Source: Lentisphaerota bacterium
GTDB taxonomy: Bacteria > Verrucomicrobiota > Kiritimatiellia > UBA8416 > JAUUYL01
Direction of reading: 5' to 3'
DNA: 64,000 bases
Assembly (NCBI GenBank): GCA_030590485.1
Contig: JAUUYL010000006.1
Location: 1-64,000 of the forward strand
Shown: piece by piece, positions 22,648 to 56,896 of the stretch
How the letters are laid out: every line of letters starts with the position of its first letter
Position numbering within the stretch: position 1 is the stretch's first letter
The notes under the pieces: model-generated
What the model was told of the DNA's origin: nothing
Seen by the model: the letters and a program-made list of their open reading frames with translations, nothing else
Databases searched by the model: none
Program-made: the position numbers and the translations under genes

Positions 22648-22723
22648 GCCAGCTTAGCTCAGTTGGCAGAGCAAGTGATTTGTAATCACTAGGTCGTCAG
22701 TTCGAATCTGACAGCTGGCTCCA
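22648..22723 (+). tRNA. tRNA-Thr (anticodon UGU), CCA encoded
   Basis: Cloverleaf: GCCAGCT/AGCTGGC acceptor, anticodon stem AGTGA-TTTGTAA-TCACT, T arm GTCAG-TTCGAAT-CTGAC, TCCA end. Confidence 0.95.
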
Positions 22724-37398: not shown

Positions 37399-38217
37399 TT
37401 ATATAGCAAGCAAAGTCTTCTCAAGGACAGATGTTATTATCGGCATGGCTTTTGTTGTTTCGCTTAAGACCTCTTCGTGGGTAAGTTTTGCGTCACCAAC
37501 GCCTGCAGCGAGGTTTGTAATGCACGAAAGGCCTGCTACAGTTAATCCGATGGAATTGGCTAATATTGCCTCCGGAACGGTTGACATGCCTACTGCTGTA
37601 CCTCCCATTGAATGGAGGTTTTGCACCTCTGCGGGTGTTTCGTATGTTGGCCCGTCCTTGGCAATGTAAATGCCGTGATGATATGTTGCATTGGAATCTT
37701 TGCATGCGGAATCCAGTATATTCCTTAATTCGAGATCATAAACCTCGCTCTGGTCGGGGAAGTGTGGGCCCCAGTATGGCTCATGTTTACCTGTTAGAGG
37801 ATTATTGCTCATGGCGTTGATATGGTCGTCAATAATCATAAGGTCGCCTGGTTTGACGGATTTGGAGAGGCTGCCAGCGGCATTTGTCAGGAGCATCGAT
37901 TTGATTGATAATTCTTTTGTTAGAAAAACAGGAAAGGCTATAGCGTCCCAGCCGCATCCTTCATACCAATGGTGTCTGCCTTGAAAAACTACGATTTTCT
38001 TGCCTTCGTGTTCGAGAAGGAGAAGCTTCCCTGTGTGACCTTTCACCTGGCTTTCTCCCATTATTGGGATATCGCTGTAGTCGATAGACTGTAAGACCTT
38101 TAGCGGGCTAATGACTTCGCTCCAGCCTGAGCCCAGAACGATTGTGAGAACAGGTGATGCGTCAATAAAGTGTTTCTTAATCCCGGATAAGGAATTTTTT
38201 AATAATTCGAGGTTCAT
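37399..38217 (-). CDS. Purine nucleoside phosphorylase
   Basis: LGSGW, GHTGKLLLLEHEGKKIVVFQGRHHWYEG, TNAAGSL, YIAKDGPTYETPAE, VGMSTVPEAILA. Confidence 0.93.
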   Translation of the reverse strand: MNLELLKNSLSGIKKHFIDASPVLTIVLGSGWSEVISPLKVLQSIDYSDIPIMGESQVKGHTGKLLLLEHEGKKIVVFQGRHHWYEGCGWDAIAFPVFLTKELSIKSMLLTNAAGSLSKSVKPGDLMIIDDHINAMSNNPLTGKHEPYWGPHFPDQSEVYDLELRNILDSACKDSNATYHHGIYIAKDGPTYETPAEVQNLHSMGGTAVGMSTVPEAILANSIGLTVAGLSCITNLAAGVGDAKLTHEEVLSETTKAMPIITSVLEKTLLAI

Positions 38218-38253: not shown

Positions 38254-38341
38254 AAAAAAAGACCGTTCAGTCAGGCAGGTTTCATTAGACTTAGAACCTT
38301 ACATCAGGTGGAGTCCTTTCCTACCTGCCCAACTGAGGGTC
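38254..38341 (-). ncRNA. Candidate small structured RNA or terminator/attenuator leader upstream of PNP
   Basis: Minus strand: TATAAT (38352-38347), then GACC-c-TCAGTTGGGCAGGT ... ACCTGCCTGACTGA-ac-GGTC-U7; tandem G-U pairs on this strand are A-C mismatches on the other. Confidence 0.6.
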
Positions 38342-38534
38342 AGCATATTATAAAGCATCTACTGTGCCAACCTCAGGGTGATTACAGCAGTAGGTCTGAA
38401 AGCGCCTGATAATAAGGAAAAAATATTTATGGCAATTAGGCGACTGTATCATATGCACATTTATTCAGGTATAGATGTATCATTACGTGAAACAATGTGG
38501 TCGTATTCGGCCAAATGAGGGGTGTTAAGTACTG

Positions 38535-39932
38535 TTAGGCCTCTATTTTGAGGCTTTCGAGTGCACGTCTCAGTTTTCCGCGCGATATACCGAGCATACG
38601 GGATGCTGCGGAGACATTGCTATTGGTTTGCTCAAGAACTGATGTAATCAATTCTCGTGTAACCTCATCCATATTGAGCGATTTAAATGACCATTCTGAC
38701 GTTGATGGTTCAGGGAGACCTACAAGTGAGTCGGGGAAGTCTGACGCTGTCATTTGCCCAGTATGTTTACAATGGATAATGCTACTTTCTATAACATTTC
38801 TTAATTCTCTGATATTACCAGGGAAACTGTATTCTGTAAGTTTGGATAAGGCTTCCGGATCAATACCGTCGATTGGTTTTCCCATTTCGGAAGCAAATTG
38901 GAGCACAAAATGAGTTGCGAGCAGGGGGATATCATCTTTTCGATCTCTTAGCGGTGGCAGTACGATGCTACAGACCTTGAGTCGGTAGTAGAGATCCTCG
39001 CGAAACTGTTTTTTGCTTACGAGTTCGTCCAATCTCTGATTGGTAGCCGCTATTACTCGGACATCGGCGACCCGCTCCATGTTCTCTCCTATGGGAAGGT
39101 AAGTTTTCTGCTCTAGCAGTCTCAATATTTTAGCTTGTGATTTCAGGGGCAGGTCGCCTATTTCATCAAGGAAGAGTGTGCCACCCTCTGCAGCTTGGAC
39201 GTAACCACCTTTTGTTTCTATCGCACCAGTAAATGAGCCCTTTCTGTGTCCGAAAAGTTCCGACTCGAATAATTCTTCCGGTACGGACGGACAGTTGACC
39301 GTCATGAAATGTTTGTCTTTTCGCGAGCTTGCGACATGTACGGCTCTTGCAGCGAGTTCTTTGCCTGTGCCGCTTTCACCGGTAATCAGGACGGTAGCTG
39401 TGGTGTCCGCGACATTTATTATGGATTCAGCAACTTTTTTGATTCCGTCAGATTTTCCAATTATCAGGTTTCGCGGATTCTTCTGGGTAAGCAATTCTGA
39501 GCTTAGGATGTTCACTTTCTGGGTAAGAAGTTCTTTTTGCTGATAAAGAATCCTGAATCGGCTGGTGCGTTCTATTGCGGTGCTCAGCGCTTCTGTGGTG
39601 AAAGGTTTTTCGAAGAAATCGGTAGCACCTTCACGAAGGGCTCTGATTGCTGTGTCGACTTGTCCGTGCGCGGTTATGAAGATGACGGCGCAGGATGGGT
39701 CAATTGCTTTGACTCGTTTGAGAACCTCGAAGCCATCGCATTTGGGCATGCAAATATCGCTTATAATGATATCTGCGCCGTTCTTGTCGATCCAGTCGAT
39801 TGCTTTCAGGGGTTCCCTGAAAGATTCAATGGAAAATCCAAATTCCTTGAGTGCGCTTTTCAGGCTGTCTCGAACCATATCGTTGTCATCGATGAGGACA
39901 ACTTTCATGTGCGTGTAATCAGATGTAGGCAT
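38535..39932 (-). CDS. NtrC-family sigma54-dependent response regulator
   Basis: Receiver (VVLIDDNDMVRDSLKS, DIIISDICMP), GESGTGKELAARAVH, ELFGHRKGSFTGA, GTLFLDEIGDL, Fis-type HTH. Confidence 0.95.
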   Translation of the reverse strand: MPTSDYTHMKVVLIDDNDMVRDSLKSALKEFGFSIESFREPLKAIDWIDKNGADIIISDICMPKCDGFEVLKRVKAIDPSCAVIFITAHGQVDTAIRALREGATDFFEKPFTTEALSTAIERTSRFRILYQQKELLTQKVNILSSELLTQKNPRNLIIGKSDGIKKVAESIINVADTTATVLITGESGTGKELAARAVHVASSRKDKHFMTVNCPSVPEELFESELFGHRKGSFTGAIETKGGYVQAAEGGTLFLDEIGDLPLKSQAKILRLLEQKTYLPIGENMERVADVRVIAATNQRLDELVSKKQFREDLYYRLKVCSIVLPPLRDRKDDIPLLATHFVLQFASEMGKPIDGIDPEALSKLTEYSFPGNIRELRNVIESSIIHCKHTGQMTASDFPDSLVGLPEPSTSEWSFKSLNMDEVTRELITSVLEQTNSNVSAASRMLGISRGKLRRALESLKIEA

Positions 39933-44114: not shown

Positions 44115-44188
44115 GCGTTAGGTGTCAGGCATTAGGGAGTAAGGAATTCTGTTGCATACTTCCCGTATTCCTGTTACTTTTCTCTTGT

Positions 44189-44302
44189 CTTCAGGATTGG
44201 GTGAGATTCCCGACCGGCGGTTAAAGCCCGCGACTCTCTGCTTAGCAGGGACTGACTCGGTGGAAATCCGAGGCCGACAGTAAAGTCTGGATGGGAGAAG
44301 AT
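44189..44302 (+). promoter_or_regulatory. FMN riboswitch (RFN element)
   Basis: TTCAGGATTGGGTGAGATTCCCGACCGGCGGTTAAAGCCCGCGA ... GACTCGGTGGAAATCCGAGGCCGACAGTAAAGTCTGGATGGGAGAAGAT. Confidence 0.96.
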
Positions 44303-44323
44303 CTGAATTGCTTGTGTGTTTAT

Positions 44324-44363
44324 GACGCAATCTGAGATTTTTTCTCGGGTTGCGTTTTTTTTT
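44324..44363 (+). terminator. Expression-platform terminator of the FMN riboswitch
   Basis: ACGCAA-TCTGAG...CTCGGG-TTGCGT followed by T9. Confidence 0.85.
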
Positions 44364-56463: not shown

Positions 56464-56896
56464 CCGATGGGATGGAGTGGTCGCCTTTTCTTAGTCTCAG
56501 GGTTTACTCTGAGAGGAGGGGAGGGAGGAAAGTCCGGACTCCATAGGGCAGGATGACTCCGTCGGCTGACGGAGAGGTTTCTCGTTTAAGCGGGGAATAC
56601 GGAAAGTGCCACAGAAAATATACCGCCCTGAGCAAGTGAGGCGCAAGCCGAACACGTCGAAGGGTAAGGGTGAAATGGTAGTGTAAGAGACTACCGCCCC
56701 GAGAGTAATCGAGGGGGCAGGGTAAACCCCATCCGGAGCAAAGTCAAATAGGGAACTGGAGGTTGTCCGTCTCATTTTCGCCTTGGCGAATACAGTTTCG
56801 GGTTGACCGCAATAGATAAATGACCAATAATTCGCTGAAGCCTCGGCTAAAGCGGGTGAAACAGAATCCGGCTTATGAATTTCATCGGTCAATATA
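56456..56896 (+). ncRNA. rnpB: RNase P RNA (bacterial type A-like)
   Basis: GAGGGGAGGGAGGAAAGTCCGGACTCC (P4/CRI region), GCCGAACACGTCGAAGGGTAAGGGTGAAATGG-type core, 3' ACAGAATCCGGCTTATGA; 14-bp P1 (56456-56469 with 56883-56896). Confidence 0.94.

Follow-up and report, generated by a model that had tools for sequence, protein, structure and literature searches.

In the window, that is, the whole stretch of 64,000 nucleotides that was analysed, a gene coding for an NtrC-type response regulator, or sigma-54 enhancer-binding protein (nt 38535–39932; Pfam PF00072, PF00158, PF25601 and PF02954), is followed on the same, minus strand by a long hairpin and by a gene for purine nucleoside phosphorylase, PNP (nt 37399–38217; PF01048), the latter not judged to be part of the RNA system described here. 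The regulator combines a receiver, a Sigma54_activat AAA domain and a Fis-type HTH. An initial annotation had proposed a possible undescribed structured RNA or attenuator on the minus strand upstream of PNP, and the sequence elements on which the proposal was built were all found at their positions, including the PNP ATG (nt 38217), 36 nt after the T-run. The small RNA is predicted to cover nt 38254–38344, with the 5' end at 38344–38341 and the 3' end at about 38254, the hairpin itself spanning 38341–38254; the covariance model matches it with 80.4 bits (E 6.8e-20, such E-values being rough).

On the minus strand the RNA has a long stem and a short inner stem, separated by a purine-rich internal loop (6 x 6), and is capped by a variable tip. 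The long stem P1, supported by both folding and compensatory changes, pairs a 5' strand GACC-c-TCAGTTGGGCAGGT (nt 38323–38341) with a 3' strand ACCTGCCTGACTGA-ac-GGTC (nt 38261–38280), in which ACCTGCCTGACTGA lies at 38280–38267 and GGTC at 38264–38261. Within P1 a tandem wobble, made of a U.G and an invariant G.U pair, occupies nt 38330–38331 on the 5' side, with partners at 38272–38273. The internal loop is formed by AGGAAA (AUGAGA in the family; nt 38317–38322) facing AATGAA (nt 38281–38286), both sides being conserved in the two alignments described below (A4 and A5), and encloses the inner stem P2 with the variable apical part (nt 38287–38316), where GGACT (38316–38312) pairs with AGTCT (38291–38287). 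A run of seven T read in the sequence (nt 38254–38260) provides the U7 tail of an intrinsic terminator.

The minus-strand fold reaches -38.2 kcal/mol, versus -21.65 ± 2.91 for 200 dinucleotide shuffles (z -5.7), none of which folded as well; the plus-strand fold is slightly weaker (-35.6, z -4.85). The covariance models score the minus strand at 80–101 bits, and the plus strand of the window gives no match. The strand had originally been chosen on the argument of the tandem wobble, and this choice is borne out by the family: nothing in it is more strongly conserved than the U.G/G.U step, with the G.U present in 31 of 31 sequences. An imperfect second copy, ACCCTGAGGTTGG...CACAGTAG, and a CTACTG/CAGTAG dyad, to which attention had also been drawn, are both present, but neither the repeat nor the dyad is conserved in relatives; the second copy overlaps the -24 element of the promoter described below. 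A coding role was considered and rejected, the AUG in CCAAUGAAACC opening only very short, non-conserved frames and being replaced by AAG in some members.

No credible match over the RNA was obtained by cmscan against Rfam 15, either for the window at the gathering score or for the locus at E<=10, and none for 14 relatives at E<=5, so that the comparison with Rfam suggested at the outset assigned the RNA to no known family. Literature searches on Kiritimatiellia small RNAs or sigma-54 returned nothing relevant.

Members of the family and conservation of the structure

A DNA search of 57 related genomes retrieved two clear relatives (in genomes G017 and G022); in each of them the RNA is immediately preceded by the NtrC-type regulator seen in the window, and PNP is not the gene that follows. 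The covariance model built from these three sequences (R1) matched 12 loci in 7 genomes of the order, some of them with two or three copies. Models retrained on 16 (R2) and 31 members (R3), which like R1 contained the RNA alone and never the promoter, brought the total to about 40 members, spread over about 25 genomes of the class Kiritimatiellia, while no match outside the window's own class was found among 388 genomes drawn evenly from the phylum. A pattern scan of 84,980 named genomes gave 23 matches, 15 of which are chance by model score; the true members among these named records come from MAGs labelled Kiritimatiellae, Kiritimatiellia, Lentisphaerales or PVC group. Some weak members (L093, L095 and L122) may be false or atypical.

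Each genome carries one to four diverged copies, the window's own genome having four: the one in the window and those at C12:11247–11360, C12:4985–5110 and C134:42038–42149. The last of these (L117), a weak family member, has no promoter of its own; a sigma-54 promoter with a TGTCTCA...TGAGACA palindrome is found about 190 nt before it, separated from it by a short lipoprotein-like reading frame, and the hairpin may be a 3' UTR element at that locus. Four further members (L038, L044, L051 and L052) are found next to or near two genes tentatively taken, on inspection, for those of DNA topoisomerase VI subunits B and A, a putative neighbourhood suggesting an old chromosomal position.

The conservation and covariation in relatives that had been proposed as a check of the RNA were clearly seen. 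In alignment A4 (16 members), which was fitted to the model and thus leans towards the structure, 95% of the cells pair, versus at most 54% in slid controls, in which the pairing partners were moved by 1–3 columns, and 45 cells changed on both sides, versus at most 7. In the plain MAFFT alignment A5 (31 members) the corresponding values are 85% versus at most 50% and 82 double-change cells versus at most 16; compensatory change affects 14 of the 20 stem pairs, and covariation amounts to 0.38, versus at most 0.12 in the slid controls. The stem structure is, by all these indications, under selection. Next to the P1 pair that is always G.U, the neighbouring pair is U.G in 21 and C-G in 9 of the 31 sequences. 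P2 covaries between A-U and G-C, and the apical part differs in both length and sequence, the mean column conservation being 0.70–0.74 in the P1 stem and internal loop versus 0.33 in the apical part.

Taken individually, 25 of the 40 members have a folding z below -2; most of the other 15 belong to a second subgroup (e.g., L098, L101, L104 and L106) with a shorter stem, often followed by a separate terminator hairpin. Most members end in a U-run or in such a hairpin. With no Rfam match and with conservation and covariation among relatives, the proposal of an undescribed structured RNA on the minus strand is well supported.

Sigma-54 promoter, enhancer and neighbouring regulator

A sigma-54 promoter of the -24/-12 type, TGGCACAGTAGATGC (GG-N10-GC; nt 38355–38369, minus strand), precedes the RNA, whose start is predicted about 12 nt past the -12 element; the spacing is fixed in relatives. 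The pattern TGG[CT][AG]N8GC occurs within 45 nt before the RNA in 29 of 33 members, with 0.017 expected per locus, and in six of seven members outside the R3 training set, adding up to 35 of 40; in nearly all promoter-bearing members the GC ends 8–11 nt before the model. A well-placed promoter is lacking in five (L045, L047, L093, L095 and L122), L047 having a GG-N10-GC that lacks the leading T. The window's genome has a gene for RpoN. With the -24/-12 promoter in front of it, and with both RpoN and an enhancer-binding protein in its genome, the RNA is probably a sigma-54-dependent sRNA.

The promoter had instead been sought in the TATAAT box (nt 38347–38352, minus strand), which lies in the AT-rich spacer between the -12 element and the predicted start. 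This part of the earlier proposal is probably not correct: a perfect TATAAT is present in only 2 of 35 members, versus a sigma-54 element shared by 35 of 40 relatives, and no good -35 was found by reading the window sequence. Thus, TATAAT is probably not the main promoter and would at most be an optional overlapping sigma-70 -10 element.

Between the regulator gene and the promoter lies a putative activator binding site, TGGCCGAATACGACCA (nt 38498–38513, minus strand), a palindrome of the TGGCC-N6-GGCCA type with one mismatch. Allowing at most one mismatch, this palindrome was found upstream of 10 members, with 0.018 expected per 290 nt. All 10 belong to genomes encoding an orthologue of the regulator, including six members that do not adjoin it; by genome, the palindrome occurs in 8 of 9 regulator-positive genomes versus 0 of 16 others (p = 8e-6, a value which is only a guide, since the palindrome was picked out by eye and the genomes are related by descent). 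In five loci, the window included, the regulator gene immediately precedes the RNA; in the other four (L039, L040, L041 and L091) the orthologue, of 55–60% identity, is upstream on the same strand, 152–447 nt away. The regulator at 38535–39932 is therefore the probable activator of the RNA. Other members carry, at a similar distance, a palindrome of a second type, TGTCTCA-N7-TGAGACA, and so different copies probably answer to different regulators.

The surroundings of regulator genes in other genomes gave some further observations. At L136 (G014:C62), downstream of a regulator orthologue, a sigma-54 promoter is followed by a different hairpin RNA, with a stem GCCGAGGGUUG/CAGCCCUCGGC and a U-run, that has no match to R3 and is possibly a second type of sigma-54 sRNA at the equivalent locus. 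After genes for other NtrC-type regulators (L137 and L138) come GTGTTC-type repeats, together with sigma-54 promoters in front of apparent protein genes. A search for divergent RNAs near regulator orthologues in other genomes gave nothing above noise.

Taken together, these features make it very probable that the hairpin represents a genuine small regulatory RNA not described before, which has a predicted sigma-54 promoter to itself and adjoins the gene of a matching candidate activator.

Mode of action and alternative explanations

Several known systems offer a comparison. GlmY is the QseF-activated RapZ decoy of E. coli, and CrcZ/CrcY of Pseudomonas and Azotobacter are sigma-54-dependent, CbrB-activated decoys of Hfq. 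RNAs of the CsrB/RsmZ family are CsrA sponges with many GGA hairpin loops, and the Qrr sRNAs of Vibrio, transcribed with sigma-54 and LuxO, are Hfq-dependent and base-pair through conserved single-stranded regions. The window RNA has a GGA-containing purine-rich segment as CsrB/RsmZ have, but in one internal loop and not in many hairpin loops. With Qrr the new family shares the presence of several sigma-54 sRNAs per genome and an NtrC-type regulator, whereas the window RNA has no Rfam match and Qrr need Hfq and pair via single-stranded regions. In E. coli, glmY has a sigma-54 promoter, upstream palindromic activator sites and, as its neighbour, the gene coding for its NtrC-type response regulator (PMC6075780), and GlmY acts as a decoy (PMC7073468). 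The window RNA resembles it in the sigma-54 promoter, the upstream palindrome, the adjoining NtrC-type regulator gene and a putative decoy role; it differs in structure, does not match the Rfam GlmY/GlmZ models and has a palindrome of the TGGCC-N6-GGCCA type versus TGT-N12-ACA. Several paralogous sRNAs per genome under sigma-54 and an NtrC-type activator are also a feature of CrcZ/CrcY (PMC6292655) and of the new family, which on the other hand has no Rfam match and a host genome in which Hfq was not detected.

Searches of the window's own genome found neither the C-terminal, RNA-binding domain of RapZ (PF22740), nor Hfq (PF17209), nor CsrA (PF02599), which were found in 6, 5 and 3 control genomes, respectively; as the genome is 91% complete, their absence is likely, not certain. 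On these grounds a RapZ decoy, an Hfq decoy and a CsrA sponge were each rejected.

We are confident that the members form a new family of trans-acting sRNAs apparently switched on by sigma-54. The comparison of genomes supports the predicted structure, the sigma-54 promoter, the linkage to the regulator, the family and the copy number; transcription and activation by this regulator we infer from sequence. In the model that we propose, the neighbouring NtrC-type regulator, once phosphorylated, would bind the TGGCC-N6-GGCCA enhancer about 150 nt upstream and activate the sigma-54 promoter of the RNA, a discrete transcript of about 90 nt. The transcript would stop at its own terminator, leaving PNP as a bystander. 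With one to four paralogues per genome in uncultured Kiritimatiellia and at least two enhancer types, several signals could raise the same kind of RNA, which would bind and titrate a protein, relieving or imposing control on that protein's other RNA targets. This last step, the action as a decoy, is drawn from the pattern of conservation and has nearly an even chance of being correct. It fits better than an antisense RNA because of the conserved stem with its odd wobble and internal loop, the free tip and the paralogues under different enhancers. The internal loop is not conserved in one subgroup (L096, L099, L121 and L158), where binding may thus differ. The reading in its most complete form, namely lineage-specific, multi-copy, sigma-54-switched decoys that titrate an RNA-binding protein by means of the tandem wobble and purine internal loop and serve as the point where several two-component signals meet, in bacteria in which neither Hfq nor CsrA was detected, is advanced more tentatively.

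A sigma-54-dependent sRNA could alternatively base-pair with target mRNAs through the exposed strands of the internal loop (AUGAGAGG / CCAAUGAAA), rather than titrate a protein. The same promoter and family evidence applies to such an RNA, and the loop strands are conserved in the first subgroup, as seed regions are; yet conservation is highest in double-stranded parts, among them a non-canonical step for which pairing would have no use, the apical loop, a frequent seed site, is variable here, and Hfq is among the proteins not found in the 91% complete genome. Base-pairing is accordingly possible, if rather doubtful.

A cis-acting attenuator or riboswitch leader of PNP, as the initial annotation had also considered, would agree with the position of the RNA 36 nt upstream of that gene and with the presence of PNP downstream at L041 and, further off, at L091 and L040 (where a further gene lies in between). 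Most members, however, have other genes or nothing downstream, the regulator–PNP order also occurs in four genomes (G003, G005, G009 and G011) where no RNA of the family was detected in the interval, and a full terminator closes the RNA while no antiterminator can be seen, all of which makes a leader very unlikely. The RNA is better taken, as in the other option of that annotation, for an independent unit, with PNP as a bystander, since the regulator–PNP pair exists also without it and most members have no PNP nearby. Still less probable is a long hairpin that does no more than terminate transcription of the regulator gene, or one that is simply stray: it does lie downstream of that gene and end in U7, but a sigma-54 promoter and putative enhancer separate the two, the gene does not precede the members found elsewhere, and the internal loop and wobble step are conserved beyond the needs of a terminator. 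A dispersed repeat or mobile element of the REP-like kind, to which the several copies per genome might point, is the least probable of all, given that a DNA search of the own genome at E<=0.001 retrieved the window copy only, that the copies, as old paralogues, are recognized by structure-aware models alone, and that no transposase was seen among the neighbours examined.

Under the decoy model, the invariant G.U step and the internal loop would offer a direct bait for the partner protein, which would be a new global RNA-binding protein. For this family the sequence allows promoter, enhancer, probable activator, structure and terminator all to be predicted, in a genome that gave no match for Hfq or CsrA; the family also suggests that paralogous sRNAs switched by sigma-54 exist outside Proteobacteria and that individual copies are under the control of different regulators.

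The regulator–PNP gene order is evidently an old one; at four loci (L126, L127, L131 and L135) the NtrC-type regulator and PNP stay together as neighbours in the absence of the RNA. Elsewhere in the window, other RNAs were recognized on the plus strand: an FMN riboswitch aptamer (RF00050, 108.5 bits; nt 44183–44306), followed by a strong terminator-like hairpin (nt 44324–44356) and thus an ordinary attenuating riboswitch, and a bacterial RNase P RNA of class A (RF00010; nt 56465–56891). A tRNA is located at nt 22648–22720.
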